Made by a program: the position numbers and the translations under genes
Shown here: positions 6,190-63,244 of the stretch, piece by piece
Layout: every line of letters starts with the position of its first letter
Numbering within the stretch: position 1 is the first letter of the stretch
The notes under the pieces: model-generated
Seen by the model: the letters and a program-made list of their open reading frames with translations, nothing else
The model's database searches: none
Told to the model about the DNA's origin: nothing
DNA from: Tetracentron sinense
Taxonomy: Eukaryota; Streptophyta; Magnoliopsida; Trochodendrales; Trochodendraceae
DNA: 64,000 nt
Direction: 5' to 3'
NCBI GenBank assembly: GCA_015143295.1
Contig: CM026561.1
Location: 45,202,875-45,266,874 of the forward strand

Positions 6190-6414
6190 ACTGATCGATC
6201 AGTGGTCAATACCGAGCGATTGGTCGCCTACCGAGCGACCGGTGTTCTTGACCGATCGATCGGTCAAAAACACCCTCTCTGGAATTTTTCCCCATACAAA
6301 AAAGTGCACCAGTCGATAGCTACCGATTGATCGGTTGTGGACCGATCGATCGCTAATATGGACCGAGTGATCGGTTATGGACCTATCGATCGCTCTCGTG
6401 ACCGAGCCATCGTT
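6190..6414 (-). promoter_or_regulatory. phased palindrome array, LTR A
   Basis: Nine 14-bp units related to ACCGATCGATCGGT start at 6190, 6211, 6230, 6251, 6322, 6341, 6362, 6381 and 6401, i.e. steps of 19-21 bp with one larger gap. The units at 6190 (ACTGATCGATCAGT) and 6251 are perfect palindromes. The cluster lies upstream of the putative TATA on the minus strand. Proteins binding it are unknown. Confidence 0.85.
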
Positions 6415-6680
6415 TTTCTGCAGGTTTTGACACTAAGTCTATTTTTTCACCCATTCCTACTACTTGGACTTATCCTACTTCCCTTTTGACCTCTTCTAAA
6501 CATGACTAGGACCCTTGTAAGGCTACGTCATATTAATAAATATTTTATTTAATTATGTAAAGCGTTCTTGCGAAATTTTCAAAGGTTTCCAAATTTTCAT
6601 TTCATGGAATTGGAGATTACAAGGCATCATGCCTTGACACTCATTCCAAGGCATAAAAAAAAAAGTTCCAGGGTTCTACA

Positions 6681-7271
6681 AAAGGGGTAGCAAGGACAAG
6701 TGCTATTCGCACAAAATATTATAACCACAAAATATTATGACTTGTTTGCTAGGGTGTATATATATATAATTTTTTTTTCTCTGTTCATTCCTTTTCTTCT
6801 CTTTTCTTTTCTTTTGTGTGATACATGGCATCATTATTGTAACCCCCGAGGGTGAAGACCAGTGGTCACTTGGACGAATTGTAAACTTGGAGGTCTGAAA
6901 TGCGATTCATTGGCTCCCCTCACTAACGACCGCATGGGTGGGGGTATTCTTTATATTAGCCCATGGGACTAGTCTGAGCTTTCAAGGCGTAGGATATCCA
7001 CGGTATTAAAATTAACACATTCAAAATTATGTCCCATGCGATTTTTTTTTTTCCTTGGTGATATTATTTTGCGACAACTCATTTTTACTTAGCATCTTGT
7101 TATTGTTGAATATCTTCAACTGATACTCCTCTTATAGTATATGTCATTGTGAATGTCCATACATTGAAACTTAGATCTCTCGTTCAAGAATCATTGTCTG
7201 ATAAGTACCTCTCTTATCATCACTATGAACAGATTCGTTGTAGATTACGATGTTTAGTTCATACGTGGACT
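6681..7271. other. intergenic, no gene seen; target of element B
   Basis: AT-rich sequence with a short TA run near 6755 and a T/C-rich tract (6765-6815). No gene recognised. The last part (about 7126-7276) is an open frame that continues beyond element B if the insertion is removed (see findings). Confidence 0.5.
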
Positions 7272-7815
7272 ACTTTTGTAGAGACCCAAAGCTTTCATTC
7301 ATGTCTTTAATTCGATTAACAAGGGTTTAAATGGTCAAAGATGCATTTTAATATATGTGATGCCTTGTTCCTTAATGATCTTAAGTAAAAATTTAAAAAT
7401 GACTAAGTGCAGGAATGTCAGAAATTCTAGAATGGGTGTGGTTTTAGTAAAAACATAAATTGTAGAATTTTGAGAAGATTTTTTTCCCGGAAATGGATGT
7501 TTATAGGTTAAATAAAGGTATGTGATTTTATGAGATTTTATTATTAAGTATAGAGTGGTTAACTCGTCTATCAAAAATCTTACGATGAACGAGATTTTTT
7601 CGTTTTTAGCCTAAAACTGAAAAATGAGATTTTGATTTATAAGGAATTGGATTTTCTAGTATTTTTTATTGAATTCAAAGAGGGGGTACTTTGTTATTTT
7701 AATTTAAAACTTACTTAAATATTTTAAAGTAAAATAAGTATACTGATGGGCTGATGCTGAAGAAGAAAGGGTGCTGATCCTGTTGCTACTGAAGAACAGC
7801 AGGAACTGTGCTAGC

Positions 7816-7962
7816 TGCGATCGATTGCAGGTAAGGTGCGATCGATCGCACACAGTCAAAAATTTCCAGAAGCTCTCGGTGTGCTTTGCGATAGATCACC
7901 ACTTATGTGCGATAGATCTCACTAGAGTGCGATCGATCGCAATGTAAGTGCGATTGATCGCA
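7816..7962 (+). promoter_or_regulatory. phased palindrome array, 5' LTR B
   Basis: Six 14-bp units of the TGCGATCGATCGCA type start at 7816, 7837, 7887, 7908, 7928 and 7949: steps 21, 50, 21, 20, 21 bp. The units at 7837 and 7928 are perfect palindromes; the others differ mostly by CG-to-TG or CA changes. The array ends 55 bp before the TATA box. Confidence 0.9.
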
Positions 7963-8017
7963 GTCGCGCCCAGAATTTTTTAAAAAGTTCAAAAATCAGG
8001 GTTTTGAACCCCTAACC

Positions 8018-8025
8018 TATAAATA
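8018..8025 (+). promoter_or_regulatory. TATA box of LTR B
   Basis: TATAAATA in the context CCTATAAATAGAGG, followed by AGTTTTAGGGTTCTAAAC. The same block occurs at 16858 in the 3' LTR and at equivalent places in LTRs of D and E. It probably sets the RNA start about 30 bp downstream. Confidence 0.8.
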
Positions 8026-9940
8026 GAGGTTCTATTTCGAGAGTTTTAGGGTTCTAAACATTTCTAAACCTAATTTGGCAAAGGAGAGAAGAGAACTTAG
8101 GCTATAAGGAATAAATTGCTTGGAGAGGAAGGAGATTGCTTGAGGATTGCAAGGAAAGCTTGAAGATCTTCCTCAAAGCCTCCTTGAGCGATTTGGATCT
8201 AAGGGAAGGATCCCAAAGGTTAATAACTTTTCAAACTCAACCCTATTTAGATGTTTTGTATGCTTAAATAAGAATATGTATGAATTATCAAGAGATTTAC
8301 GTGAAATGAATGAATTAAGGAATTAAAATATAAATTGAGGATTGATATTATATCTAGTCTAACTCTTGTATTATTATGATTATTGATTTAGCATGATAAA
8401 GAAAATAGATGTTGTTTATTGTTAATTGATATGATTACATTGAATATGAATGCTTAGAAATGATGGAGAATGAGTTCAAATAAAATGATTGTGGAGTATG
8501 AATAAATGAAGATGATGGTAGATGGGCTAAAATGGAGAATGGATGAATTATGAATGTATGGATTTGTGTTGGGTTTGGAAGGGATAAATGTGGTTTATGG
8601 ATGGGTATGTGATGGTTATGAAATATGAAAATGGGAAGGGTATTGCATACATAACTAACGCATGATAGGTGCATGTTGAAATGTCTAAGAACACTAAGTA
8701 TAGAAAATGATGATATTGGAAGGTTTTTATGAGTACAATAAGATATGCTATGATGTATTATGCCTAATAATGATGTTAGAAATGTTAGCATGAACATGAC
8801 AAGATATGAAGTATGTTATGATAAATTATTCTTATTCATGTTGCATGATGATTAATATTCGGATAGGCCAAAACCTAGAGGAAGTTATCCATATCGGGAA
8901 TTCTCTAACTAGGGAGATGTAATTTAGTGGTTTTTTGGCCGAAGATGAAATCTAAATAATGATCGAATTCGGATCTTAATCACGACACTCAATCACAAGT
9001 TCACATGCATAATAGTTTACAATTCTCACGGGTACACGAACATGACACAGACATTGCATGAACACGGACATTGCATGGACACTGGATACTGAAATACAAG
9101 GACAAGTACAAGGACTTTGAACACTGAAATACAAGTATAAGGACAAGGACACTGCATGATTTTATAAGGACCTTGAATTTCAAGTAGCTCCGGTATTCGT
9201 TGATGCTCTCCATGGATTAGATTTTAAATCTTGGATAATTATCATGGACATTTGGGATCTAAGAGCTCTAGGGGCTTACGCTTCTGTTGATGCACATCCA
9301 TGGATCTAAATACAAAGACCTCGATGACTATTTTTATTGAAAAACAAGCATGCATGACATTTATGATACAAGTTCAAGAGTAATACAAGTACATGAGTCA
9401 AGCTAAGTCATGATGTTCATATGTTTCCACACTCTGATTATGTTCATGTTATATTAAACTGCTATTGACTTTATAATTGTTACATGATTTGGATATTGGA
9501 TAAATGCATGTGCTATTGTTGGTTAGTTTGGATATCCGTTGAGTATTCAATGCTCAGTCGACTTGTTATTGTCGTTCAGGTCTAGTGCAAGATCAGGCAA
9601 CTGCTCCTTAAATGAAAGAGGAGTATTTTGAGGAAGTGAAAGAAGGTGATCTTTAGGTTGATGGAGCCCGGGATCCTGACCGGTTCCCGTATTACTAGTT
9701 TATTTCCAGTTTCAGTTTTGTTGAATGACAACTTGTAATAGACTTGAGACTTATTAGTAGATGTTACTTTAGTTTATGTTATACATTTTGGATATATTAG
9801 TTGACAATATTTGGATGAATTTTTTTATATTAAAAGAAATTTTATAGTTACTATTTTAGGGAGTATTATCTTTTAGTTCCGCCTTATTGCTATCGAGGTT
9901 AAGTAGGGATAAGTAATGTAGCGGACCATGGAACAGGAAG

Positions 9941-10649: not shown

Positions 10650-12150
10650 TTAAAAAAAAAATTCGGTGAAACTCAAATCTAAGGTTTGAGTCGAGAACTC
10701 ACGAATCCAAGAGGCGATGGTTCGGTTTCCCTAAAAGTCTATCTACCCTTTTGAATATTTTAACAATTAAGTTATTAACTTAAGGGATGATAAGGAAATA
10801 GAAAACCAAGCAAACCACAATACAATGATTTTTACGTGGAAACCCTTCCGGGAAAAACCACGGGACCTAGTCCAGCCATGAGAATCCACTAAGACAAAGT
10901 TAACAAGAACTTATAAGACTCAAACTTGACTCATTCGGACTCGACACTACGATCCTTTAGTTCTTAGTCATCCACGCCTCGAAAAGTCATCATGAACTCA
11001 CAAGTCCCATGATCAACCGCAACCGCTTGTACTTCACTTTGTGTCTCGAAAATAATCCACGATCTTCCGATCGATCTCCGTCAATGACGGCTTCAGATTC
11101 CACCGACCAAATCACACTACCACGATCCTTCTCGGATCGATCTCCTTCGCAAAGGCTCCAGAACACTCTGGCCAAGTTGTTCTATTCAGAACGGGTTGAT
11201 GGTTTGTTTAAAATCAACTCTTTGATGGACTCCTTCAATGAAAAAGTCCAAGCAAGTAAGAATGGGGCTTTAGGCTTACAAACTCTAGGATAAAAGCAAC
11301 TAAAAAAGGAGAGGAGAAATATTAGTTTCCAAAGTTTTTAAGAACTCTAGAAGGAGTTAAAAAACCTTTCTATACTCTCTCAAAGTTGTGCTCCACGAAC
11401 TAGAGGGGTTCACACTTTATAGGGAATCAAAAACATGGTTTAGAAGATGCTAAAAGTGTTTAAAAACCAAAGAGGCAAGCAAAAACCGAATTGGCAATTT
11501 TTCCCATATCAGGGTCAACCATGGGGGTTACTTGGGCCGACCCAACTCCCTCACTTTGGTCGACCCAAACATCCTCCAGGGTCGACCCTCAATTTTGCTT
11601 GCTTCTGCCTCATTTTGCAATAGAAAAATTCTTAGACCCAGGGTCAACCCAAAACGCCCAGGGTCGACTTTGAGGTGCTGACCCAATTTTAAAATGTTAT
11701 TTTTAGCTCTTGCACCCTTCATGAAAGTTGTAGCACTTTTTGACGCGGTTGATTTGATATATTATAGAGCAAAATCCGAGCTACGTTTTGGGAGATATGC
11801 CACCTATAAGCAACCTTGAGTTTTTGAAAAATTTCATAATTTTTAACTTATTTTGCACTGCATATCTCATCTCCTTGGGTCCATATGATTAGTCTAGGAC
11901 ACTTACCAACTAAGGTATCATGTTAGGTTTATTCTAAGTCAATTCCCACCTATGGTAACATGATATCTAGGTCACTTACCATCCTATGAATGAAACGAAG
12001 GAAGTGATCAACTGAGTCTTCAAAGCTCTTCAACTTCACTTGTCGTGGATGCTTGACGGCAATGACACAAGATACACACCTAATCACCTAGACTCACTTG
12101 TTTTGACACTGGAATAAGTCAATCACATAAAACATGGACTTTACAAATTC
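10650..12150 (-). mobile_element. probable solo LTR (copia-like) inserted in gag B
   Basis: Element E keeps gag uninterrupted at this point (GAGAAGAATTTAGAGGAATTTTTGAAG), so the ~1.5 kb between GAATTT and GAATTTTTGAAG is an insertion. Read on the minus strand it has a palindrome cluster, then CTATAAAG (TATA, 11416-11421), then near its end GGTTTTTCCCGGAAGGGTTTCCACGTAAAAATC, a block I associate with plant copia LTR ends. No coding capacity. Exact TG...CA ends and TSD could not be fixed because both flanks are A/T-rich. Confidence 0.6.
11511..11670 (-). promoter_or_regulatory. GGTCGACC palindrome cluster in inserted LTR
   Basis: Six units centred on GTCGAC or close variants begin at 11514, 11536, 11559, 11581, 11644 and 11664, mostly 20-23 bp apart. 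Perfect AGGGTCGACCCT is at 11578. On the minus strand the cluster lies upstream of the TATA at 11416-11421, as in the chromovirus LTRs although the palindrome is different. Confidence 0.75.
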
Positions 12151-14613: not shown

Positions 14614-15894
14614 TTGATGGTCAACATTATGATCAGGCCAACCATCTTGGACATGATTAAACACTTGCAATGGCATAATGGAGAATTGGACGCCGCTATG
14701 AACAAGTCGATTAGCAGCAGGTTTGAGGATTTCTCTTGGAGAGATGATGAAATCTCTTTCAAGGACAAACTTTGTATTCCAGATAATGAAGATTTAAGAA
14801 GAGAGATTCTGGATGAAGTACACAAGTCCAAGTACACTGTTCATTCGGGAGGTACCAAGATGTACCAGAACCTCAAGAAATATTTTCTGGTGGAAAGGTA
14901 TGAAAAAGGACGTGGCTACCTATGTGTCAAAGTGTTTGGTGTGTCAACAGGTTAAAGCCGAGCACCGAAGACCAGCCGAACTTCTTCAGTCACTTCCTAT
15001 TTCCAAGTGGGAGTGGGAAAATATCTCTATGGATTTCGTTGTCGGTTTGCCAAGGACAGCGAAGAACTTTGATGCTATTTGGGTCATAGTTGACAAGTTG
15101 AGCAAGTTAGCTCATTTTCTTCCATATCGGACCACTTTTAACTCCAACCAGTTGCCCAACCTTTATATCAAGGAAGTAGTCCGTTTGCACGGAGTGCCAG
15201 TCAGTATTGTTTTTAATCGAGACTCGAGATTTACTTCCAAGTTCTAGAAGAGTTTTCAGCATGCTATGGGTTCCTATTTGGATTTTAGTATGACATTTCA
15301 TCCGCAGACAGATGGACAAACGGAGAGGGTGAACCCGATCATAGAGGACATGCTACGGGCTTGCATGTTAGACTTCCAAGGCAGTTGGGATGATCACCTG
15401 TCATTGGTTGAATTTGTCTACAACAATAGCTATCAAGCAAGTATTCAGATGGCACTATTTGAGGCACTCTATGGGAGGAATTTTCGTTCACCATTATGTT
15501 GGGATGAAGTTGGCGAGAGGAAGCTTTTAGGTCTTAAGCTCGTTGGTCAGACTATGGATAGAGTTCAGTTGATCAGAGAGAGGTTAAAAACAGCTCAGAG
15601 TAGGCAGAAGAGTTATGCCGATACTCACAGAAGGGATCTTGAGTTTCAAGTTAGAGATTTTGTATTTGTCAAAATCTCACCTACAAAGGAGGTGATGAGA
15701 TTCGGAAAGCGGGGTAAGCTCAGTCCGAGATATGTGGGTACTTTTGAGATCATCACCCAGGTTGGAGAAGTTGCTTATTGGGTTGCCTTGCCACCTCACA
15801 TGGCAGGTGTGCATAATGTCTTTCATATCTCCATGTTGAAGAAGTACATCTCGGATTCTTCACACGTCATTCATTTAGATCCCTTGGAAATCTG
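14614..15894 (+). pseudogene. integrase of element B
   Basis: HHCC domain ([23 protein letters not shown]), catalytic core ISMDFVVGLPRTAKNFDAIW, NRDSRFTSKF and TDGQTERVNPIIEDML (DDE triad visible), then the C-terminal domain ending YISDSSHVIHLDPLEI before TGA. One extra base near 14890 shifts the frame inside the zinc domain, and a TAG replaces the Trp after SKF (15244). Family knowledge: strand transfer gives the 5-bp TSD seen around this element. Confidence 0.92.
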
Positions 15895-16113: not shown

Positions 16114-16655
16114 TGTAGATATCCAAAGTTTTCATTCATGTCTTCAATTCGATTAATAAGGGTTTAAATGGTCAAAGATTCATTTTAATATATGTGATGC
16201 CTTGTTCTTTAATGATCTTAAGTAAAAATTTAAAGAGAACTAAGCGCAGGAATGTCAGAAATTCTAGAAGGGGTGTGGTTTTAGCAAAAATATAAATTAT
16301 TGAATTTTGAGATGATTTTTTTCCGAAAATGGATGTTTATAATTAAATAAAGGTATGTGATTTTATGAGATTTTATTATTAAGTATAGTGTGGTTAACTC
16401 GTCTATCGAAAATCTTACGATGAACGAGATTTTTAGTTTTTAGCCTAAAATTGGAAAATAAAATTTTGATTTGTAAGGAATTGGATTTTCTAGTATTTTT
16501 TATTGAATTCAAATGGGGGGTACTTTTTTATTTTAATTTAAAACTTAAAGGAAACATTTACTTAAATGTTTAAAGTAAAATAAGTATACTGATAGGCTGA
16601 TGCTGAAGAAGAAAGGGTGCTGGTGCTGCTAAAGAACAACAGGAACTGTGCTAGC

Positions 16656-16802
16656 TACGATCGATCGCAGGTAAGGTGCGATCGATTGCACACAGTCAAA
16701 ATTTTCTAGAAGCTCTCAATGTGTTTTGCGACAGATCACCATTTAGGTGCGATAGATCACACTAGAGTGCGATCGATTGCAATGTAAGTGTGATCGATCG
16801 CA
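16656..16802 (+). promoter_or_regulatory. phased palindrome array, 3' LTR B
   Basis: Units start at 16656, 16677, 16727, 16748, 16768 and 16789 (steps 21, 50, 21, 20, 21), exactly as in the 5' LTR. The TATAAATA box is at 16858-16865, 55 bp past the array. The two LTRs differ at several CpG positions within the units. Confidence 0.9.
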
Positions 16803-18550
16803 GTCGTGCCCAGAATTTTTTAAAAAGTTTGGAAATCAGGGTTTTGAATTCTTAGGCTATAAATAGAGGTTCTATTTCGAGGGTTTTAGGGTTCTAAATA
16901 TTTCTAAACCTAATTTGGCAAATGAGAGGAGAGAACCTAGGGTTCTAAGGAAGAAATTACTTGGAGAGGAATGAGATTGCTTGGGGATTGCAAGGAAAGC
17001 TTGAAGATCTTCCCCAAAACCTTCTTGAGCGATTTGGATCCAAGGGAAGGATCCCAAAGGTCAATATCCTTTCTAACTCAACCCTATTTAGATGTTTTGT
17101 ATGCTTAAATAAGAATATGTATGGATTATCAAGAGATTTACGTGAAATGCATGAATTAAGGAATTGAAATATAAATTGAGGTTTGATATCATGAATTATG
17201 ATTATTGATTTAGCATGATAAAGAAAATTGATGTTGTTTATTGTTAATTGATATGATTACATTGAATATGAATGCTTAGAAATGATGGAGAATTGGTTCA
17301 AATAAAATAGTTGTGGAGTATGAATGAATGAAGATGATAATGGATGGGCTAAAATGGAGAATGGATGAATTATGAATGTATTGATTGGTGTTGGGTTTGG
17401 GTTTGGAAGAGATAAATGTGGTTTATGGATGAGTATGTGATGGTTATGGAATATGAAAATACGAAAGGCATTGTACACATAACTAATGCATGGTAGGCAT
17501 TTGTTGAAATGTCTAAGAACACTAAGTATGGTAAATGATGATATTGGAAGGTTTGTATGAGTACAATAAGATATACTATGATGAATTATGCCTAATAATG
17601 ATGTTAGAAATGTTAGCATGAGCATGACAAGATATGAAGTATGTTATGACAAATTATGCTTATTCATGTTGCATGGTGATTGATATTCGGATAGGCCAAA
17701 ACCTAGAGGAAGTTATCCATGTCATGATTTTTCTAACTAGGGAGATGTAACTTAGCGGAGTTTCTTGGCGGAAGATGAAATCTAAATAATTATTGAATTC
17801 AGATCTTAATCACGACACTTAATCACAAGTTCACATGTGTGATAGTTTACAAGTCTCACGGGTACACGAGCATGACACGGACATTGCAAGGACACTGGAT
17901 ACTGAAATACAAGGATAAGGAAAAGTACAAGTACAAGGACTCTGAACACTGAAGTACAAGGATAAAGACACTGCATGATTTTACAAGGACCTTGAATTTC
18001 AAGTAGCTCCGATATTCGTTGATGCTCTCTATGGATAAGATTTCAAGTCCTGGATAATTATCATGGACATTTGAGATCTAAGAACTCTAGGGGCTTACGC
18101 TTCTGTCGATGCACTTCCATGGATTTAAATATAAAGACCTTGATGACTATTTTTTATAGGAAAACAAGCATGCATGACATTCATGATACAAGTTCAAGAG
18201 TTACAAGTTCAAGAGTTACAGGTCCAAGAGTCACACAAGTACATGAGTCAAGTTAAGTCATGATGTTCATATGTTTCCGCACTCTGATTATGTTCATGTT
18301 ATATTAAACTGCTATTAACTTTACAATTGTTACATGATTTGGATATTTGATAAATACATGTGCTATTGTAGGTTAGTTTAGATATCCGCTAAGTATTCAA
18401 TGCTCAGTCGACTTGTTATTGTCGTTCAGGTCTAGCGCAAGATCAGGCAGCTGCTCCTTGGGTGGAAGAGGAGTATTTTGAGGAAGTGAAAGAAGGTGAT
18501 CTTCAGGTTGATGGAGCCCAGGATCCTGACCGGTTCCTGTATTACTAGTT

Positions 18551-18702
18551 TATTTCCAGTTTTAGTTTTATTGAATGAGAACTTGTAATAGACTTGAGAC
18601 TTATTAGTAAATGTTGTTTTAGTTTATATTTCCAGTTTCAGTTTTGTTGAATGAGAACTTGTAATAGACTTGAGACTTATTAGTAGATGTTGCTTTAGTT
18701 TA
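18551..18702 (+). repeat. 76-bp tandem duplication in 3' LTR B
   Basis: TATTTCCAGTTT... begins at 18551 and again at 18627; the two copies differ at a few bases. The 5' LTR has one copy (near 9700), so the duplication postdates or escaped LTR synthesis. Confidence 0.9.
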
Positions 18703-19174
18703 TGTTATGAATTTTGGATATATTAGTTGGCAATATTTGGATAAATTTTTTTATATTGAAAGAAATTTTATAGTTACTATTTTGGGGAGAATTATCTTTT
18801 AGTTCCGCCTTATTGCTATGGATGTTAAACAGGGATAAGTAATGCAGCGGACCCAAAGCCCCATTATGACCAAGGTGGGGTTTTGGGGTCGTTACAACTT
18901 TGCATCTAACAACTGATCGTCTTGTATGTGAAGAGGAGTATTTGTTTACAAATGATTTTTGAATTGTCCGTGTGGACAGTTTAGGAATGCATAATCCTGA
19001 ATTATGTGTTAATCGCCTGTGCACACTCAATTTGGAAATATTTTCGTCAGTCAGTCATCCCTATTGTTCTCTGGGTACATATTTGGAGGAGGAATGCATC
19101 TGTCCATTGTTTAAATCGTGTACTTGGAGAGCCATGAGGAGATGCTGCCGAAATTTTCCCAAAATTGTCTAATA

Positions 19175-27491: not shown

Positions 27492-28112
27492 TTTGCACAT
27501 AAATGTTTTAAAATAGGGGTTAAGTCTAGATTTTTAGGGTTTTAAACCCTAGGGCTATAAATAGAAAGTCTATTTCGTGGGTTTAGAGTATTCTAACTCT
27601 TTTTAACTAATTTGGCAAAGAAATGGGAGAAAACCTAGTTTTCTAAGGAAAGCACTTGAAGACGCAAGGAAAAGCTTGGATTACACTCCTCAAGCCTTTC
27701 TAAAGCACTAGATCAAAGGGTTTCGATCTTGGAAAGTTGATACTCTCTACTAAATAATCTTGTTGTAATCTTTGATTGAAAGAAATGATGAAATCCATGT
27801 GTTTAATGTGAAGCTTTTGTTATACCCTATTAAATTGCTCATGTGGTGAATTCTTGATGAAGGAGAAGATAGGATGTATTGATTTGTGATGTAAAACATT
27901 TTGAAGAGATGAAATTATGTGTTTAAATTATATATGAGCATGTTTAGGACTATGAATTAGAAATTGAAATGCATATGCCATGTTATTGAAGTTTTATTGC
28001 CTATATGTCACTCACAAATGGTATATGAGCACTTGCAATTGCACGATCGAAGTTTTGCATAAGTATGAGTATCCAAAAAGTAAAGTAAAGAAGATGAACA
28101 ATTGTAAAAGAT

Positions 28113-28505
28113 GCTATTGGGAGGGTGATAGTGTGCTCAGACCAAGTACAACCCCTAGTCACCTGATCCGAAGTAAAACAAAAAGGAAAGAGATGGTATT
28201 GGGAGGATGTTAGTGTGCTCAGACCAGGTATAACCATTAGTCATCTGATCCCAAGTAAAAGAATGAATAAAGATGTTATTAGAAGGATGTTAATGTGCTC
28301 AGACCAGGTACAAACACTAGTCATCTGATTCCAAGTAAATATATTGAATAGAGATGATATTGGGAGGATGTTAGTGTGCTCAGACCAGATACAACCAATA
28401 GTCATCTTATTCGAAGTAAAAGAATGAACAAAGATGGTATTGGAAGGATGTTAGTGTGCTCAGACCAGGTACAACCACTAGTCATCTAATTCAAAGTAAA
28501 AATGA
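28113..28505 (+). repeat. ~80-bp tandem repeat, five copies, in LTR C
   Basis: Units starting at 28113, 28195, 28275, 28356 and 28436, each with TTAGTGTGCTCAGACCAGGTACAA and an ACTAGTCATCTGAT block. Confidence 0.93.
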
Positions 28506-43849: not shown

Positions 43850-43861
43850 TGGTATCAGAGC
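43850..43861 (+). promoter_or_regulatory. primer-binding site of element E
   Basis: TGGTATCAGAGC, intact Met-tRNA complement, four bases (GAGG) after the LTR. Confidence 0.95.
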
Positions 43862-47017: not shown

Positions 47018-47022
47018 AAAGG

Positions 47023-47850: not shown

Positions 47851-47997
47851 TACATTTAATTATAAAATTAGTTATGTATTCTAGTATTGTGATTATGTTA
47901 TGATGATGTTTGTTGCTATGTATCAACATGCTAAATATATATTATTTATTTGTTCACATGATTTCACACACTTAGTTATGTATCAAATTCAGGCACT

Positions 47998-49000
47998 TTG
48001 TTGGTAAATGATTTCTTAGCTCTTGTGTTGGTTGGTACGGGTTCTACTCACTCCTTCGTTACTCCTAGTTTTGCTCAAGAATTTTCGATGGAGCCAAGTC
48101 TGCTAGACCATGAACTATCTATCGCCACTCCTGTTGGTAGTTTAGTCATCACTAAAAAAGTCTATGGAGCTTGTGGCATTCGAGTGAGTCAGAGAGAAAT
48201 GCCAGCTGGTCTGATTGTCCTTGAATTCCAAGACTTCGACATCATACTAGGCATGGATTGGTTTTTCAAAAAATACCATGGGCATGTCGACTGTTTCGGC
48301 AAAGTAGTCAACTTTAGGCCAATCAGTGAGCCTCCTTTTCGTTTCCAACGGTTGAAGAAGAAAGATTTAGCTCAATTTGCGGCATTGAGTCTTGCTACCT
48401 CGGAAGCACCAGATTCTTCAAGTATCCCTGCTGTAGAGAAATTCATGGATGTATTTCCCAAAGAATTGTTGGGTTTGCCACCGGATAGAGAAGTAGAGTT
48501 TGCAATTGAGTTAGCTCCGGGCACGGCACCCATCTTCAAGCCGCCATGTAGGATGGGTCCAGCAAAGTTGAAAGAGCTAAAGGAGCAGATTGAAGAGTTG
48601 CTCGATCTGGGTTTTATTCGCCCAAGTATGTCACAGGGAGCTTCGGTCCTATTTGTGAAGAAGAAGGATGGTTCGATGAGAATGTGCATCGACTATCGGC
48701 AATTGAACAAGGTCACTATCAAGATCAAGTATCCTTTGCCGAGGATCGACGACCTATTTGATCAGTTGCAAAGAGCGAAGTATTTCTCCAAGATCGATTT
48801 AAGGTCGGGCTACCATCAATTGAAGATAAAGGCTGAAGATATGCCTAAGTCTGCATTTAGAACCCATTATGAGCATTATGAATTCCTAGTCATGCCATTT
48901 GGTTTGACAAATGCCCTGTCAGCCTTTATGGATCTCATGAACAGAATCTTCAAGCCGAATCTTGAGCGATTTGTGATCGTATTTGTGGATGACATTTGGT
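47998..49000 (+). pseudogene. protease-RT open block of element E
   Basis: The longest intact retrotransposon frame of the window (350 residues). The protease active site reads [16 protein letters not shown]; the catalytic Asp of DTGS is Gly, so no proteolysis is expected. [90 protein letters not shown] and VIVFVDD show a complete RT palm with motif A and motif C Asp. A one-base loss after VDD (near 48993) ends the frame. Confidence 0.92.
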
Positions 49001-49760
49001 GTATTCCAAGACCCAAAAAGAGCATGAGATACATCTCCGGGCCATACTGAAGAGACTCTGTGAGAATGAGTTGTATGCTAAGCTTAGCAAGTATGAGTTT
49101 TGGCTAGAAAATGTAGCATTTCTACGCCATGTGGTGTCAGGAGAGGGGATTTCAATTGATCCTACTAAGATAAAAGCAATGGAAGGTTGGGGAAGGCCAA
49201 AGAGCGTCACATAAATTCGAAGCTTCTTGGGCCTAATTGGATATTATCGAGGATTTGTTGAAGGATTTTCTAGTTTGGCAGCTTTGCTTACTCATCTAAC
49301 TTGAAAGAACGCCAGATTCGAGTGGAATGAGAAATGCGAGAAGAGTTTTCTTGAGTTGAAAAAGCATCTTACTACCGCCCCCATCTTGATTGTATCATCT
49401 GGTAGCGGAGGTTTTATGATGTATAGTGATGCCCCACTCATTGGGTTAGGTTGTATTCTTATGCAACACGGGAAAATTATTGCCTATGCTTCCTGGTAGT
49501 TGAAAGATCATGAAAAAAACTATCCTACCCATGATTTAGAGTTGGAAACATTAGTGTTTGCTCTCAAGATCTGGAAACACTACTTGTATAGTGAGCAGTT
49601 TAAAGTATTCACTGATCACAAGAGCCTAAAGTATCTGTTCTCGCAGAAGGAGCTAAATTTGAGGTAATGCTGTTGGGTGGAATTCCTCAACGATTATGAT
49701 TGCTCTATCTGGTACCACTCAGGAAAAGCAAATGTGGTGGCAGATGTACTAAGTAGGTGA
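49001..49760 (+). pseudogene. RT thumb/RNase H of element E
   Basis: Reads [29 protein letters not shown], then with stops at 49212 and 49302: [76 protein letters not shown]. All four RNase H acidic positions remain, but five or more stops interrupt. Confidence 0.87.
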
Positions 49761-51353: not shown

Positions 51354-53420
51354 TGTAAAGACCCGAACCATCTTTCATACCTTTAATACATTCAATATAG
51401 GTATAATAGTCTTTTGTTATGTTTTAATGCATATTTAATTATATCTAATAGTGTGGTGTAGTCTAAATGATTTAAGTGTTAATAAGGTGAGGAATCAGAG
51501 CTGACAATCGATCACAAGAGATTGACGATCGATCGCCTAGAAACTGAAACCAGGGTAAGCCCCTGTTTTGTGCGATGATCGATCGCACTAACGGGACGAT
51601 TGATCATTGGAATCAGGAAATTTGGGGAAGTTTTTGTTTCTTGGATGATCGATCATAGCAGACGCGATGATTGATTGCCAAGCAAGAGACGATCGATTGC
51701 CCAATATGAAGATCGATCACAATGGAACCCAGAAATTTTTAAAAGAGTTGCGGATTTTGGGGTTTTAACCCTTAGGCTATAAATAGAGGTTCCATTTTGA
51801 GGGTTTAGGGTTCTAAACTATTCTAAAACCTAATTGGGCAAAGGAGGAGAGAAAACACTAGGTTTTTAAGAAGTTTTGGCTTGGAGAGAAAGAAATTGCT
51901 CAAGGGAGAAGAAGACCTATCTTGGAGAGTAAACTCAAGGCTTGAAGGAGCTTCATCTAGCGAGTTGGATTCAAGGGAAGAATCACTAAGGTCAATATCC
52001 CTTCTAACTTAACCCTATTAAGATGTTTTGCATGTTTAAATAAGAATATGTATAGATTTTCAAGGGTATTATATGATTATGCAAATATAGTTAGGTTGTG
52101 AGCATGAATGGGGGATTTTACTCATGAAATGGATGTTTTGCATGTGTTCAAAGCTCTATTGGTTATGAATTGTCGATATCCTTTCTAATTCAACCCTAGT
52201 AATGTTCTTATATATTAAGATGTGAATGTTTATGGAGATGTGACCATGATGGGAATTCTCAAACTAGGGAGATGTAACCTAGCGGAGTTTCTTGACGGAA
52301 GATGAAATCTAGGTGATGACCGAATTCGGATCTTAATCATGATACTCAAGCACAAGTTCACATATGTGGTAGTTTACGAGTCTCACGAGTACACAAGCAT
52401 GAACACAGACATTGCATGGACACCGGATACTGAATTACAAAGACAAGGACAAGTACAAGTACAGGGATTCTGAATACTGAAATACAAGTACAAGGACTCT
52501 GAACACTGAAGTACAAGGACAAGGACACTGCATGATTTTACAAGGACCCTGAATTTCAAGTAGCTCCAGTATTCGTTGATGCTCTCCATAGATAAGATTT
52601 CAAGTCCTAAATAATTATCATGGATATTTGGGATCTAAGAGCTCTAGGGGCTTACGCTTCTGTCGATGCACCTCCATGGATCTAAATACGAAGACCTCAT
52701 AACTATTTTTCTGGAAAAACAAGCATGCATGACATTCATGATACAAGTCCAAGAGTCACAAGTTCAAAAGTCACACAAGTACACAAGTCCAGCTAAGTCA
52801 TGATGTTCACATGTTTTCGCACTCTGATTATGTTCAAGTTATATTAAACTATTATTGACTTTACAATTGTTGTATGATTTGGATATTGGATATATGCATG
52901 TGCTATTATTGATGTTGGTTAGATTGGATATCTGCTGAGTATTCAATGCTCAGTTAACCTGTTATTGTCGTTCAGGTTTAGCGCAGGATCAGGCAGCTGC
53001 TCCTTGGGTGGAAGAGGAGTACTTTGAAGAATGAGAAGTAAGTGAGCTTCCAGATGAGGGAGCCAGGGATTTTGATAGTTATCCCTATTAGTAGACCGTA
53101 GTTTACTTTCTGAGTTGTTTTGTTTTAGACTTATGTTATTTCAGGATGTTGCTTAGACTGTTTACTGTTATTTGATGACTTTCTTCTACCCGATCATGGT
53201 GGGTATGTTGGGCTTATTTCAAATTATGTTTGTGGATTCGGATTATTATCGGTTTATTATATATCGGATGAGATGTTTTATGGAAAGAAATTTTATAGTT
53301 ACTATTTTGGGAGAATTATCTTTTAGTTTTGCCTTATTGCTATGGAGATTAAGCAAGAATAAGTAATGTGGTGGACCCAAAGTCTCATTATGATCAAGGT
53401 GGGGTTTTTGGGTCGTTACA
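51354..53420 (+). repeat. 3' LTR of element E, internally deleted
   Basis: 2067 bp, TGTAAAGACCC to GGGTCGTTACA. Compared with the 5' LTR it lacks a ~0.6-kb block (5' LTR 42114 to ~42705) at 52235, where GTTTATGGA runs into GATGTGACCATGATGGG. Confidence 0.92.
51503..51721 (+). promoter_or_regulatory. phased palindrome array, 3' LTR E
   Basis: Eight units at 51503, 51524, 51574, 51595, 51644, 51666, 51688 and 51708 (steps 21, 50, 21, 49, 22, 22, 20), one more than in the 5' LTR. TATAAATA at 51778 is 56 bp past the last unit. Confidence 0.9.
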
Positions 53421-55205: not shown

Positions 55206-55859
55206 CCTATGTAACGACCCCAAATCCTATCTTGACCAAAATAGGACCTTGGATCGCCACATTTCTTAAACCTGTTTAAATACCATGACATACAAGGCAT
55301 ACAACACGAGTCACCAAAAATGAGAATAATAAAATTTTGATATATAAAACCAAAATCATCCTGCTTAAGTCTATGGTCAACATAAACATAACCCACCGTA
55401 AACAAAAATAGTCTCATACCCAACTATAAAGTATTCTGGTAAGCAACATCATCTAAGAGTCTATTACAATTCTCGTAATCGAAACAAAAGATAACCAACT
55501 AATAGGGGTAACTATCAAAACGCCTAGCTCCCTCCTCGGAAGGTTCACCTTCTCCTCCTTCTTCGATGTAAGCCTACTTAATCCACGGCTCACCTACAAA
55601 CTCGGGCTCCACACTTGCCAAGATAAAAGTCTGGCTGAGTACAAAAGCATTCGGTGTATATAAAAATCCAACCAACAACATAGTATCCCTGCACTTAGTT
55701 AAAACCATAACCAATAGTATAATAACATAATCAGAGTGCGGAAGAATATGTGGTCATATACATCATATCATCACCTTGACTCATGTACTTGTGAGAATCT
55801 TAGACTTAGGAGACAACATGCTTATACTTATGAGTCCACGTGCTTATTAGATGCTTATA

Positions 55860-56046
55860 CTTATGAGTCTTTGAGCGGCTTATTCAGATCATACACTTAT
55901 TCAGATCCCTCATTGGGCTTATCCATTCTATCAAGCGTATATAATGCTTATGCTTATGAGTCTTTGAGCAGCTTATTCAGAACAGACACTTATTCAGATC
56001 CCTCATTGGGCTTATTCAGTCTATCAGTCGTATGCAATGCTTATGC
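55860..56046. repeat. ~93-bp tandem repeat, two copies, 5' LTR D
   Basis: Units at 55860 and 55953, the counterpart of the three-copy array in the 3' LTR (31766-32037). Confidence 0.9.
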
Positions 56047-56637
56047 TTGTGATCAGCATGTGTTACTTGTGAGACTCTTATCTTAACACACATGTGAGTT
56101 TGTGCATAAGTGTCGCAATTAACATTCGAATCGGTCATCCCTTAAGTTCCAAACCTCCGCTAAGAAACTTCACCAGGTTACATCTCCTTGGTCAGAGAAT
56201 TCTCAACATGAAAGTCTTTCCTCTAATTTCTTACCTTCCCAAATATCAATTACTATGTAATATAATTAGGCATAATTTAACAAAAAATCACATATATATA
56301 TACCTTATTATAATTCTTAGCATATTTCATAATCAATCTTTAACAATACTCATCCTCCATCATATATATATCTCCTTCCTCTATTTGTACATATTGCACC
56401 AACCATATAAACCATGAATCCATCCACATACATTTAAGAAAAGAAAAAAAAACCACTTAGAGGGAGTGGGGGGGGGGGGGGGACATAAAACCTTACCCCT
56501 AAAAAAAGACAAACAAGGGAAAGGGGAATTAAAAACCCCCCAACCCTTTACAAACTAAAAACCAATCAAAAAACTCTAATGTTACCAAGGCCCACTTTAT
56601 CCAAAAAGATAAGAGCCCTAAGACGAGGAGAGCTGTC

Positions 56638-59600
56638 CTAAAGGGACTGAATAAGACCCGAATGCTGAATATCACACCCATAATTAGCTAAAAAATCTGC
56701 AACCTGATTTGCTTCTCTATAAATGTCATTAAAAGAAGAGCAAATACTATTTATTCTTTTAATTTTTTGATTCCAATACCAAGCAGACCAAGGGTGTTGG
56801 CATTTTCCATTCCAAGCTTCTACAAGGGTTTTAGAATCTGATTCTACCTCTATCTGAATATAACCCATAGAAAGACATAGAGTGATGCCATCAAGAAGAG
56901 CTCTGGTCTCGGCAATATAGCTGGTAGTATGGTCATAAAAAGAGAAGAAACAAGCTAACATATCCCTATGATGATTTCTAATAATTCCTCCTCGACTAGC
57001 TAAACCGGGATTACCTCTAGAAGCTCCATCCACGTTTAGCTTTAGGGTACCTTGAAGAGGCCGGATCCATTTTGTAAGAGAGATATATTTTCTAACTTTA
57101 GGAGAAGAAGACATAATGCCAAAAGGAGAAAGGTCCAGTCTTCTTTTAGAAGGAATTTTCCCCAGATCCGCTAGCCAAGCTTTGATTTGAGCAATAATAA
57201 TGTCCGAAGTCTTCCTTATATTCTTGAATCTTCTCGAGCATCTCTCCTTCCAAATTTCCCATATGATAAGAAGAGGAAGCAAATTGAAAATATCATTATG
57301 ATTCCTCTCATAGGCTCTGAACCATCTCATAAGAAGGCATTGAATGGAGTCACTGGGCTGGAGAACAATGGAGCAATACCTAGCAAAATATCTCCAAATT
57401 CTAGCTGCAAAATCACTTTGATAAAGAAGGTGAGATAATGTTTCAATATTACCAATATTACAACAAGAGCATCGACTGACTAAAGGAATTCCTAGAGATT
57501 GAACCATATTATCAGTCAAAATAGCACTATACATTACCTTCCAGCCAAAGATTTTAATTTTTATTGGAATATTAGAATTCCATATATTCTTACTCCAATC
57601 CTTACGAGCATTATGGATTCTAATAGAATCCCAAACAGATTTTACTGTAAACTTACCATTCAAACTGGGATTCCAAATAAACTTATCCTCAGAGTCAGAA
57701 GTAAAATAACCTACAGCTCGAATATCTATCTTCAGGTGATCAGGCATATAATCATTAACAAGATAAAAGTCCTAGTTTCCATTAGAATCAAGCATATCTG
57801 AAATAAAAGGAAAAGACTGAGGGGAAGAAATAGCATTATCAATTAGAGGAACCTTTCCAAAACAACAATCTAACCAGAAATTTATCTTATTGCCATTTCC
57901 AATTAGAGCAGTTGATTTGTATATCACCTCTTTACACGTTTGACTAATTTTTATCCAGGTTTTTGAAGCATTAGGACTATAAGAGGCATGCCATATATGA
58001 TTAAATTGATATTTCTTCCTGAAAAAGTTTGACCAAAGGTTATTCGATTGGTAAAGGTTCCAAACTTGTTTCATTCTAAGAGCATTAAAAAACTCATTCA
58101 TATTACGGATACCAAGACCCCCTTCCAACTTGGGAAGGGAAGTATTCCAATTAATCCAGTAACGTTTTCTAACCTCATTTGTATTATTCCAAAAAAAATT
58201 TACCATAATTTTGTCAATTTGAGAAGTAATCCCTTTTGGCACATAAATGCCAACTAGAAGATAGGTGGGCATGGAAGATAGGACATGTTTAATCAGAGTA
58301 AGGCGACCACCTGACGATAAGAGTTTTGCCTTCCACCCTTCCACCTTATAAGAGATTTTATCAATAAGAGAGTTAAAGTAGATCTTTTTAAGGCGGCCTT
58401 TATGAAGAGGGATTCCTAGATAAATAAAAGGAAATTTTTTCCTAGGGATTCCCACCCAATTAGAAATATTATCAAGTCTCATTCTATTCATCTTATCAGA
58501 ACAATAGAAAGAACTTTTAGATCTATTTATTAGTTGACCTGAAGCTTTCTCATAGTTTGAAATGAAATTAAAAATTTTCTTTATATTCTGCTTTCTACCA
58601 TTACAAAAAATAAGAGTATGATCAACAAATAGAATGTGAGAAATAGGAGTACCATACCTTCTCAATTTATAAGTAGAAGAAAGGTTTTGAGATATGTTTT
58701 TGAGACCCCTACTAAGAGCTTTTTCTGCAATAATGAAAAGAGCTGGGGACAAAGGATCACCTTGACGAAGACCCCTCGAACTCTAAAAAAAACCTTGAAG
58801 TTGCCCACTAATAAGAATAGAGAAAGATTGGTTATTCAGACAACCTCGAATCAATCTGATAAATTCCTCTTTAAAACCCATCTTTTGTAAAACAGAAAAA
58901 ATAAAAGTTCATTCCATTCTATCATAGGCTTTAGACATATCAAGTTTAAAAATAATATTACCTCCCAGAGTTTTCCTATCAATGTCTTGCACCATTTCCT
59001 GAGCTATGCTAACATTTTCTAGAATATTCCTTCCTTTAACAAAGGCACTTTGCTCATCAGAAATAATGTTAGGAAGTAATAATCCAATCCGATCAGCCAA
59101 AATACGAGATATGATCTTATAAAGAAAATTGCAAAGACTAATAGGTCTAAAATCCCAAAAAGACACATAAGAACATTTAGGGATTAGAGTTATAGCAGTT
59201 GCATTTATAGCTCTAGGAATTTTAGTAATCACAGAAAAGAAGTTAATAGCATGAAATAAATCCTCCTGAATAATTTTCCAGCAAGAATGAAAAAAATGAC
59301 CAGAAAATCATCAGGACCAAGCGCACTATCTGCTGACATACTAAACACAACTTTTTTATTTCTTCTATAAAGGGAGAAGAAGATATGGAGATATTTTGAT
59401 CCTCAGAAATAATATAAGGAATATGATGCAAAATATTATTATCATGAATAGCATTATCAGAAGAGAGCAATTTTTGGAAAAAATTAATCGCTTCATTACC
59501 AATATCTTCCTGAGATTCTAGCCAATTTCCTTGATCATCTTGGATTCTAGATATGCAATTACGACTCCTTCTAGATTTTGTGACCATATGAAAAAACTTT

Positions 59601-60681
59601 GTATTATTGTCATCTTCTTTGAGCCATTGAATTTTGGATTTCTGTCTCCAGAATATTTCTTCATAAAGAAGAAAAGACTGCAATTCATCTTTAAGGTTAG
59701 ACAATGAAGTATTTTTCACATTGTCCCAAGATCTTTGAATATCCTCTTCCAACTCAGAAATTTTACTTTCAAGAGAGTTAATTTTTTGGAAAATATTACC
59801 AAATACATCTCTATTCTAGATTTTCAAAGATTTTTTAAGCCTTTTAAGTCTAAGGAAAAAAGAGATGAGAGGATTAGCTAAAATTGGATGCCCCCATGAT
59901 TCAGAAATAATTCTAAAAAAATCCGGATGATTAATCCACATTTGCTGAAATTTGAAGAAGAGGGCCTTCTGGTTTGATTATTACCAAATTCTAATAAAAT
60001 AAGAGCATGATCTGAAGCAATTCTAGGAAGATGTTTAGCTGAAGAGATATTGAAATTATTATTCCAATCAGAATTAAACAGAATACGATCAAGACGGGCA
60101 TAAATACGATGGATACCTACCTGATTGTTGCACAAAGTAAATTTATTGCCAGCAAAGCCCATATCCATCAGACCTAACTCGTTAATCATATTATTAAAAT
60201 CTTCCATAGAATCGAGATTAACATCTCTGCCACCCAATTTTTCATCAGAAGCAGAAATGGCATTGAAATCGCCACCTATAAAGAAAGGACCTGAAAAAGC
60301 AATAAAAGCAGCACAAAGGTCTTCCCAAATGGATAATCTTTCCATTCTAGTACATTTGGCATAGATGAAAGCACATATTATAGTGTTAAATTCTACTGAA
60401 GAAATATCAACAATAAGCATTTGATCAGCAGATGAAACATAATTGACTTGAAGATGATTCTTCCAGAACAACCAAATCTTAGAATGAGAATTTCGAACAT
60501 CTAAATAAGAATCCATACCAATAAACTTGCAAACTTCAGGAAGGATATCCAATTTATTTTTTGGTTCTATAATAGCCGAAAAAACAATATGGTTAAAATT
60601 TATTAATTGTTTTAATCTAGTTTTCGAGATGAGATTAATACCCCTAATATTCCAAATGAGAAAATTATTCATTAATAACAT
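56638..60681 (-). pseudogene. LINE ORF2: endonuclease, RT, RNase H
   Basis: The APE-type endonuclease starts MNNFLIWNIRGI and has IEPKN, GGDFNAIS, RLDRILFN and ASDHALILLEF, the catalytic signatures of the EEP fold (60681-59940). A linker (IQWLKEDDNNTKFFH) precedes RT (58900-59290): RPISLCNFLYKIISRILADR, DEQSAFVKGRNI, FKLDMSKAYDR, RGLRQGDPLSP, then HILFVDHTLIF at ~58620 where the family has F/Y-A-D-D, so the second catalytic Asp is His. The zf-RVT part and RNase H follow (KLNVDGASRGNPG, ETRALLDGI, ESDSKTLVEAWNG, REANQVADFLA). Breaks lie near 59880, 59290, 58910, 58780 (stop) and 57770. It would nick target DNA and copy LINE RNA. Confidence 0.93.
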
Positions 60682-61204
60682 TATTGGGGTTGTTAACCAA
60701 ACAAAGGATCGCTGATCTAGCCCGAGTAATTCTATTAGTAGAAATCTTAACTTTGTTTCCTTTAGATTTATACTTTCCTGTTCTATCTTGATAAGATGAA
60801 AAGAGGTCAGAATCGAGAAGTCTTTGAGAGAATTTTTTCCCATCCTCCTTGAAGTATTCAATATCATTTAATAACCATGGATTAATGGTAGAATGATATT
60901 CAAAGGTTTTGAGAATTTTCAAACAAGATATTACTGATATTCGAACACTTTTTAGATATGGGATTATCTTCTAGAGTGTTTAATAGTTTTTCTCACATAC
61001 GATACTACAGATATTGATTGGAGGAAGCATTATGCTTCTTGTTTGTAGTTTCTAAAAGACCTTTAAGTTTTGATTTAGTAAGAATACTTCTATTATTTAT
61101 CAAAGAACCATCTTTTAAATTTTCATCCAAAATATAGGGTTTGTAACAATTCGAAAAAGTTGCAGTCTGTGCTTGCATCAGGCTGCTATTTTCCTCACGC
61201 AAAT

Positions 61205-62406
61205 CGGCATCTTTCTTGTTAGATTATGAGATTTTATTTGCATCATAATTGAGTTCGTTTATCAGGTTGTAAGATGAATCTAAATCAAGCAAAATAAGTT
61301 CTTTAGGATGAGGTGAAATTGACTTACCTGTTGTAGAGAGAGAACCGAGGTCTATAGAATGTTTAGAAGGGATTTCAGTGCCTCGCTCACCTGTAGCCGC
61401 TGCCCCATTAATGGTATTCTGGTTTTCTGATCTAAGGACAAGATCAGAGGTTTCTTTTTTATTCAAATCTTGTTGATATATTTGTAAGGATGGCTCTGAA
61501 ACGTTAATCTCTCCAGGGTTTGGTTTTGCTGGGAATTGTTTCACCACCCATTGTTTGGTGGTGAGCTTTTGCATTCCCTCTTCAGCATCTTTGCAAGCAT
61601 CAACTACAAATTCTTTTCGATCTGGTACTTTAGATCTAGGGTTAGATCTATTTCTTATACCTGCTACACATGAAGAGTCCTCATAATTGCTTGCAATATT
61701 TGAACTTTTTTTCATATTCCACTGTTTGCCAACGACCATGAGTCCCCAGCCCCAACAAAAATCTGTTCGGGTTTAGTTTGAGCAGATCCATCTCGATGCA
61801 GATTCTTGCTGCACTTGGTCTGGACAAAGTTGTCGTGGCTCCATCAATTTTCAGCACCCTCCCAAAAATACTACCAATTGATTGTAGGGCTGAATCATTG
61901 AATAGATGTAAGGGAAGATTAGGGAAGCAAACCTAGACCGGAACGATGGAAGATTCAATTCCGGAGATGAAAGATGGAGTCCATTTAAAGAATCGAAACA
62001 AAAAACCTTTGATATATACTACCTCTTTGATCCATATCATTAGAAAATCATTCTCTGAGGTAAAACGAAACAAAAGATGTCTTGAATCTAAAATACCAAC
62101 TGTAAAATCCATTCGAAGCCCCTCAGATTTCTTCATGTGAGACTTGATATCATCAAGGGAGGGACGACCATATGAGCACTTAGCCACAAGAGATAGAGCA
62201 TGCGGTTTAACTAAGGCTGTATTTTCTTCCTCCAAAAAAAATATTGGAGGCTCTCCCTTAAAAGAAGAAGGTATTTTGAGGGGAATAAAAGAAGAAGAAG
62301 ATTTGGATGGAGGTCTACCTACTATTTCCTTAAAGGAGAAGGGAGGGTTAAGCGGCCGACAAGAGGAGTCCCCTTCCTTGCCACCGGCAACCCTAGGGTT
62401 TTCCAT
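61205..62406 (-). pseudogene. LINE ORF1 (DUF4283-like)
   Basis: Starts MENPRVAGGKEGDSSCRPLNPPF, with a DUF4283-type region (CSYGRPSLDDIKSHMKKSE, DSRHLLFRFTSENDF, VVYIKGFLFRFFKWTP, and in the gap LPLHLFNDSALQSIGSIFGRVLKIDGAT, RPSAARICIEMDLLK). The zinc-finger part that should follow WQTVEYE is frameshifted near 61735, so the Cys/His pattern is lost. The C-terminal ~170 residues are low-complexity and polar. ORF1 proteins bind LINE RNA. Stops lie near 61930. Confidence 0.82.
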
Positions 62407-63047
62407 GAAACCCTAGCAAATTTCCTCCAAAGTATGCTAACATGCACCTAAAAACTAAATTTGCTAACTTGCACCTCCAGAGCAAAAATTCCTACTTGAT
62501 CATCCATCCACATACATTCCCATCCTCCATTTGTACACAATTCAACAACCATATAAAACAATAAATCCATCCACCTACATTCCCATCCTCCATTTACTCC
62601 ATTCTTAGAGCTAAACATCATCAATTTCATAAGAAAACTTCATATTATATTCATAGTCATACCTATTCATAATAACCTATAATCCTCATATTATTATCCA
62701 TAATCTTATCAATAATCCATCATTTCTAACTTAAACCATCTTAAACATACATAAGTTCATAATAGAAGTGAGTTGGATAGTATATCGACTTTTGGGATCG
62801 TTCTTTCGATCCAAAACGCTCCCAAGAAGGTTTGATGTTGATTTTCAAGCTTTCCTTGTAATATCCAAGAAATCTCCTTCCTCTCCAAGCAATCTCTTCT
62901 TTAGAACCTTAGGTTTTATCTTCCCTCTTTGCCAAATTAGGTTTAGGAAAGTTAGAACCCTAAAACCCTCGAAATAGAACCTCTATTTATAGCCTAGGGG
63001 TTTAAATCCCTGATTTTCGTAACTTTTTAAAAATTCTTGTCCGTGAC

Positions 63048-63244
63048 TGCGATCGATCGCACATACACTGCGATCGATCATAACCTCTATTGCAATTGAT
63101 CGCACCTAACGGTGATCCGTCGTATTCTACCCAGAAAATTTTCCAGGTAATTGACTGAGTGCGATCGATCGTACACCGAATAGAGATTTCCCTAGTTTTT
63201 CACACTGAGTGTAATCGATTGTAGGTCTCCTGTGATTGATCACA
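63048..63244 (-). promoter_or_regulatory. phased palindrome array, 5' LTR D
   Basis: Units at 63048, 63069, 63091, 63111, 63160, 63210 and 63231 (steps 21, 22, 20, 49, 50, 21). The first is 56 bp from the TATA on the minus strand, the same as in the 3' LTR. Confidence 0.9.

Follow-up and report, generated by a model that had tools for sequence, protein, structure and literature searches.

Nine arrays of short palindromes lie in the long terminal repeats (LTRs) of retrotransposons in a 64,000-nucleotide stretch of the Tetracentron sinense genome. This stretch, the window, is C11:45202875-45266874 (GenBank assembly GCA_015143295.1, 1.16 Gb in 1479 contigs; contig CM026561.1). The arrays are real and not a product of chance. 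Their 14-bp units share a core, CGATCGATCG, and carry just beyond it, at positions ±6 and ±7, a dinucleotide mark that is uniform within most arrays and differs between them. On balance we favour a role for the arrays as U3 enhancers in plant LTR retrotransposons, with the core read by dimeric host proteins and the outer dinucleotide by the particular paralog. Each palindrome would then be a site for a dimeric host DNA-binding protein. A whole protein family would read the shared core (half-site GATCG) and its paralogs would differ in the two base pairs beyond it, which is why most LTR lineages would keep one 'address' per array. Sites about 21 bp apart upstream of the TATA box would load the factor in rows and so drive transcription. 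We infer the protein reader, its host origin, activation and cooperative binding by the rows.

Arrays in the window and in the genome

A site is a match to CGATCGATCG at 8 or more of 10 positions. Register ties were settled by palindrome count, which biases slightly toward symmetry; the doublet test described below has no such step. The window contains 56 sites, most of them in nine clusters, compared to a mean of 8.5 and a maximum of 18 in 200 dinucleotide shuffles. The nine array segments (1,591 bp in total) contain 47 sites, and local shuffles gave a mean of 2.7 and a maximum of 8. Adjacent steps of 19–23 bp occur 26 times and steps of 48–52 bp four times (shuffle averages 0.01 and 0.005). 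A preliminary description, made from the letters alone, had placed at least nine arrays here with steps of 20–22 bp and recurrent gaps of 48–50 bp, and had proposed shuffling as a check. The site scan recovers the nine listed there, and the shuffled window lacks comparable periodicity. The 4–9 palindromes per LTR given there hold for seven arrays; those at 34671 and 39117 have only two and three sites. The arrays are as follows.

6190–6414, minus strand: 9 sites; mark ACC..GGT (15 of 18 half-sites); TATA-like match poor, 80 bp away
7816–7962, plus strand: 6 sites; mark TGC..GCA; steps 21,50,21,20,21; TATA at 8018
16656–16802, plus strand: 5 sites; mark TGC..GCA; steps 21,71,20,21; TATA at 16858
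32709–32905, minus strand: 6 sites; mark mainly TGC..GCA (9 of 12 half-sites); TATA at 32645–32653 (minus strand)
34668–34703, plus strand: decayed array, 2 sites at ≥8/10; weak TATA 115 bp on
39119–39222, plus strand: 3 sites at ≥8/10 (5 in a looser scan); mark TAC..GTA; TATA at 39279
41411–41606, plus strand: 5 sites; asymmetric, left half mostly GAC, right half GCA-like; TATA at 41663
51503–51721, plus strand: 7 sites; asymmetric, left half mostly GAC, right half GCA/GCC-like; TATA at 51778
63048–63173, minus strand: 4 sites at ≥8/10; mark mainly TGC..GCA (6 of 8 half-sites); TATA at 62984–62992 (minus strand)

Genome-wide, exact core doublets 18–24 bp apart number 14,443, and the reversed control gives none. 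Chance origin is ruled out by these counts together with the window shuffles. All exact doublets with 0–30 bp between cores number 16,389, including the 14,443; among the matches listed, most of the remainder are spaced at about 36–40 bp, roughly two steps. Enrichment is not seen everywhere in the genome: a random sample of 20 × 2 kb (40 kb) has 7 core-like sites, where nine control decamers gave 1–13, so the sites belong to particular repeats. Several of the doublets among the matches listed are paired about 5.7–7.9 kb apart, most with an identical linker, which is the arrangement expected of 5′ and 3′ LTRs.

The units are CpG-rich, with an observed/expected ratio of 1.20–1.62 in the nine window arrays and 0.23–0.74 in their 200-bp flanks (no island-finding program was used). 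TG and CA variants occur at the core CpGs, in agreement with the decay suggested earlier.

The last palindrome centre lies 62–63 bp from the TATA box in seven of the nine window arrays, matching the 62.5–63.5 bp first reported for seven LTRs. In four ACC-marked LTRs the distance is 71–72 bp. Over 27 arrays (defined below) there are 134 adjacent steps, of which 91 are short, with a mean of 20.8 bp (s.d. 1.0), about two helical turns. The longer steps fall at 49–52 bp (22), 69–71 bp (11) and 40–41 bp (4), with 6 others. TAC-marked arrays from further loci show the same pattern, e.g. 21,21,20,49,20,21,21. The suggestion that all sites lie on one DNA face fits the short steps and is not established across the gaps of about 50 bp. 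At 10.5 bp/turn the phasing is R = 0.42, with the 49–52-bp gaps leaving blocks out of register, and strict same-face phasing at this pitch is rejected across gaps. The best fit (R = 0.854 at 10.15 bp/turn) is discounted, since 7.6% of 1000 draws attain it under a null in which each shared gap class shifts as a unit. A less conservative null (0/2000 at 10.2 bp/turn) was set aside as pseudo-replicated.

Two further features were noted by eye or in alignments. The 49–52-bp gaps (e.g. about 7850–7890 and 51605–51645) contain a partly similar AT-rich block, perhaps a second binding site. Just 3′ of the TATA box (about 8040–8065 and 51800–51825) are AGGGTT-type stretches, similar among aligned LTRs, which we take to resemble plant telo-boxes.

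The dinucleotide mark beyond the core

Array comparisons used three sets drawn from the window and from further loci (L numbers): 27 of 37 arrays (161 sites), 32 of 42 arrays (197 sites) and 19 of 24 arrays (99 sites). Near copies (L001, L003, L006, L012, L015, L017, L022 and array 16656) and arrays with fewer than three sites (34671 and L011) were left out of the first two sets. The 19-array set was chosen blind to the mark, leaving out five near copies. Related arrays are still present in all three.

In the 27 arrays, core conservation is about equal within and between arrays. Agreement at ±6 and ±7 is 77–83% within arrays and 32–34% between, and at ±8 to ±11 it is 31–36% within and 25–30% between. 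Because some of these loci had been fetched by a mark-specific pattern, the test was rerun on the 19 mark-blind arrays. Uniformity at ±6/±7 was 0.758 within arrays versus 0.325 shuffled (z 21), and core uniformity was 0.857 versus 0.844. Mirror complementarity at the same two positions was 0.65/0.61 versus 0.33/0.32, a level reached by none of 300 array shuffles.

A doublet test gave the same picture. It used the first 50 places on C1 of the 14,443, from which 11 repeats were dropped to leave 39 distinct strings with 35 distinct linkers. Over the 35 linkers, concordance was 0.66 versus 0.34 at ±6, 0.71 versus 0.39 at ±7 and 0.26 versus 0.32 at ±8. The conservation boundary at ±7/±8 is sharp and falls at the same place in the array and doublet tests. 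Information content (32 arrays, 197 sites) is 1.36–1.95 bits in the core, 0.41/0.46 at +6/+7 and 0.10 at +8.

Neighbouring sites of unlike mark are rare for the pairs counted across the genome. Like-like doublets number 2193 for ACC-ACC, 1084 for TGC-TGC, 670 for TAC-TAC and 108 for GAC-GAC. Mixed doublets number 0 for ACC/TGC (both strands) and 24 for TAC/TGC, where independence would give about 3084 and 1704.

In the ACC arrays L010, L012, L015, L017, L021 and L022, the perfect palindrome is mixed with a one-letter variant, CGATCGCTCG. In those examined, the variant faces the same way relative to the LTR, L021 and L022 being reverse-complemented.

Host elements, descent and known systems

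By their predicted domains, the window elements are of Ty3/gypsy chromovirus type. Protease and reverse transcriptase (RT) come first, RT and RNase H follow, and integrase with SH3_Tf2-1 is the final part ahead of the 3′ LTR; integrase following RT/RNase H is what assigns them to Ty3/gypsy. Their chromovirus lineage is presumably Tekay-like. At the related locus L021, the Chromo domain (E 4e-5) scores 23.9 bits, just below the curated cut-off of 25.1, and a weak integrase core match is likewise below its cut-off. The LTR pairs of the two window elements, E1 and E2, are 87.5–89% identical over aligned parts.

7277–9780, plus strand: E1 5′ LTR (part recovered by alignment), 88.4% identical to 16114–18630; begins TGTAGAGACCC; carries array 7816–7962
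15248–15892, plus strand: E1 integrase C-terminal part (SH3_Tf2-1); integrase last, as in Ty3/gypsy
16114–18896, plus strand: E1 3′ LTR, preceded by integrase SH3_Tf2-1 (E 9e-23) with a weak chromodomain-like tail (E 0.01, below cut-off)
41262–43845, plus strand: E2 5′ LTR, followed at 43850 by primer site TGGTATCAGAGC, which we assume to be of tRNA-Met type
47962–49047, plus strand: E2 protease (RVP_2) and start of reverse transcriptase (RVT_1), from domain matches
51354–53420, plus strand: E2 3′ LTR; two aligned parts match the 5′ LTR at 87.5 and 89.1% identity

The core also occurs in at least one element that appears to be of Ty1/copia type, L054 being the one clear case on the copia side. 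Its LTR pair (3112–3654 and 5428–6008, 83.6% identical) encloses a zinc knuckle and a Pol_BBD domain, which we take as marks of Ty1/copia. Both LTRs carry arrays with the same core, GCC/ACC marks and a 39–40-bp gap. The short element L055 has paired LTRs, a primer site and this array type; it gave no domain match. At L044, a copia-type gag adjoins a GAC array.

Descent was followed through sequence similarity and a small integrase tree of nine rows. Of the 32 loci, 25 fall in one similarity group, some through links in neighbouring or coding sequence. The tree places L021 (ACC) next to L004 (TGC), at 91% amino-acid identity, and array 16656 (TGC) next to 51503 (GAC), whose branch is long (support 0.79), so marks differ between relatives and, in one case, between close ones. 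The array regions of L004 and L021 are not alignable and that of L021 resembles other ACC LTRs; the long 87% match between the two loci is the integrase stretch, upstream of the LTR array. An integrase near L004 combined with an ACC-like array region suggests that the promoter block of L021 was exchanged as a cassette. In arrays 16656 and 51503, the last palindromes sit at the same aligned place with unlike flanks. Multiple alignment across arrays of different marks proved unreliable, as they do not align end to end.

Palindrome arrays upstream of a TATA box are already known from Sireviruses; their occurrence in Ty3/gypsy elements, this core, the spacing and the measured mark appear new against the open-licence literature searched. 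The preliminary description was therefore wrong that no named plant element is of this type, because the Sirevirus repeated motifs had been described before (PMC2829016). In that account (Bousios et al., 2010), 13 Sirevirus elements are reported to carry palindromic boxes in 8–32 copies, which form CpG islands and gather upstream of a conserved TATA box, within the upper half of the LTR. Their consensus is given as 66.5–100% uniform within an element and as differing between elements around a common CGG-CCG core, and the motifs as absent from all classic Ty1/copia elements compared there. Tnd-1 of tobacco, without the CpG island and that TATA box, is the sole published exception to the CGG-CCG core (PMC2829016), and its motif ACAATCGATTGT shares an ATCGAT centre with the core found here.

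The present arrays resemble these motifs as CpG-enriched palindromic boxes in high copy number upstream of an LTR TATA box, which is weak or poor in two of the nine window arrays. They differ in having CGATCGATCG in place of CGG-CCG, in their lower site numbers (2–9 in the window, in most arrays below the Sireviruses' minimum of 8 per element) and in their hosts, Ty3/gypsy chromoviruses plus the copia-type L054, where Sireviruses are Ty1/copia. The 19–23- and 49–52-bp steps have no counterpart spacing rule in the portion of PMC2829016 used here, and the two-base mark with free linkers goes beyond the motif description it gives. Among the open-licence papers listed, the core letters turned up in a single pepper paper, unrelated to the arrays, and a single bacterial one.

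Tnt1 and Retrolyc1 are plant LTR retrotransposons with U3 repeat enhancers, whose boxes differ between subfamilies of similar coding parts. To our knowledge, such U3 repeats have fewer copies and no palindromic core common across superfamilies. Retroviral U3 enhancers also repeat factor sites upstream of TATA, as long direct repeats of mixed sites, unlike single palindromes on a step. More generally, repeat arrays are reported in cis-regions of transposable elements (TEs; PMC10760457). Among the matches listed in a search of open-licence literature, we found no Ty3/gypsy counterpart of the arrays, the Sirevirus account (PMC2829016) being the only related one, and 'palindrom' did not occur in the portion used of PMC11656987, a machine-learning study of plant LTRs.

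Other repeats were seen in the same DNA. A pair of GATCGATC sites separated by 66 bp, in matching 16-bp contexts, is present at 11072–11138 in the window and again at 691–757 of L042, a random genome stretch; they represent another repeat family with the motif, outside the described arrays. The window also has a tandem array of ~81-bp units, 84–86% alike (28106–28509), and an ~87-bp tandem duplication (31763–32038) within a stretch repeated at 55239–56371. On the minus strand, 56641–60867 contains Exo_endo_phos, RVT_1, zf-RVT and RVT_3 domains, pieces of non-LTR retrotransposons that are presumably LINE-type, and 20794–21495 contains a 234-aa open frame with no Pfam match at E 0.001.

Readings of the arrays

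Sequence-specific recognition by a dimer, proposed in the preliminary description, is supported by the near-invariant core, the mirror-symmetric outer pairs and the free linkers. A shared core with variable, mirror-symmetric outer pairs would be a pattern imposed by a family of dimeric DNA-binding proteins. GATA12, GNC and GNL are described as binding a GATC core (PMC6918188), which makes GATA-type factors a lead, and only a lead, to candidate readers. More tentatively, the outer dinucleotide may amount to an address system, in which a diversified dimer family, host or element-borne, reads the GATCGATC core together with two outer base pairs whose identity is paralog-specific. In two retrotransposon superfamilies, each lineage would have settled on one address, changing it by promoter-cassette swap or at all sites together, and the addresses would be co-evolving with the reader family.

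Several results count against a U3 enhancer read by paralogous homodimers. The TATA scan of the 32 loci found no TATA box in 11 (L001–L008, L014, L021 and L022), including all eight of the first TGC set, and only poor matches in a few more. Linkers of the 19 arrays keep a slight similarity (0.306 versus 0.266 shuffled at ±8 to ±11, z 3.9), and small symmetry excesses at ±8 and ±10 were reached by 3 and 2 of 300 shuffles. Mixed-mark doublets were counted for just two mark pairs, ACC/TGC and TAC/TGC. The commonest half-site mark covers at most 50% in 8 of 32 arrays, and both mark letters agree in just 49% of the 35 doublets (15% expected), so unlike neighbours are common in some families. The related arrays 41411, 51503, L018 and L023 are asymmetric, one half carrying GAC and the opposite half GCA/GCC, in constant orientation to TATA. 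One strict homodimer fails to explain these consistently oriented, unlike halves, and the units that the preliminary description called palindromic are, at 41411 and 51503, only partly so. The rule is thus that the majority of arrays have uniform marks, and the majority, with exceptions, symmetric ones. Lastly, many arrays share ancestry, so their sites are not independent.

Shared descent accounts for part of the mark pattern, each mark going with a set of families, and could be extended into a full alternative. An ancestral minisatellite-like array would have spread along with the elements, handing down its geometry, with marks made uniform by slippage, gene conversion or template switching. 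The large similarity group fits such neutral turnover, as do L004 and L021, whose arrays differ as if a promoter block had moved. Descent leaves unexplained that linkers lost similarity while marks kept it. Recent amplification of units would homogenise linkers too, and linkers within arrays are near chance, despite the slight excess given above, which disfavours amplification as the sole source of uniform marks. The sharp boundary at ±7/±8 and the Ty1/copia-type case, with the same core and a 39–40-bp gap, also argue against neutral turnover. CpG-rich sites should moreover decay fastest in neutral DNA. The preliminary description had held that simple inheritance from one recent LTR would undo its case. 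This is partly true, given the 25 loci in one group, but the linkers diverged while the sites were kept, and its claim of common spacing across families with diverged LTRs is supported. We consider inheritance with neutral turnover improbable as the whole explanation.

Two other explanations keep a function and change its nature. The arrays may recruit an anti-silencing activity in place of an ordinary activator, through a VANC-like sequence-specific protein or a reader of dense CpG, an account we regard as rather unlikely. VANDALs are DNA transposons. The VANC targets are described as short motifs in tandem arrays in non-coding TE DNA, whose units diverge together and differ between related TEs (PMC5735166), and units share a mark within most arrays here too, in CpG-rich blocks amid CpG-poor flanks. 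However, the VANC motif YAGTATTAY is not palindromic and its protein is TE-encoded (PMC5735166), and no open stretch longer than 110 aa occurs outside pol in a forward-strand scan of four gag/LTR stretches of E1 and E2, although both elements are decayed. A pure CpG reader would not need the A/T positions, which are kept as well as the CpG ones, and the fixed site-to-TATA distance in seven of nine window arrays is a further point against anti-silencing. A structural constraint, in which the palindromes form hairpins in RNA or single-stranded DNA and small RNAs then map there, seems quite improbable. U3 lies at the 3′ end of genomic RNA. Array RNAs fold much better than shuffles in 5 of 5 cases (z –3.1 to –7.7; two control stretches +0.6 and +1.3), and the palindromes of maize Sireviruses are reportedly hotspots of small RNAs (Bousios, 2016, via PMC10760457 and PMC5311732), so the predicted hairpins may matter for small RNAs. 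Structure alone would let the core letters drift, yet every array has the core, and 99% of half-sites have T at +3 (sites were picked by core similarity, which favours this, with core positions weighed alike). It is the outer two pairs that vary, and in RNA there is no evident use for a position anchored on TATA.

On the favoured reading, thousands of loci in a single genome share one enhancer design that carries a lineage-specific mark; the two commonest marks counted, ACC and TGC, have no exact doublet in common. This would extend a Sirevirus feature to Ty3/gypsy elements and would suggest that unrelated elements converged on one reader family. The old question of why plant LTR promoters bear fast-changing palindrome clusters becomes directly testable through core-reading proteins and their paralogs.

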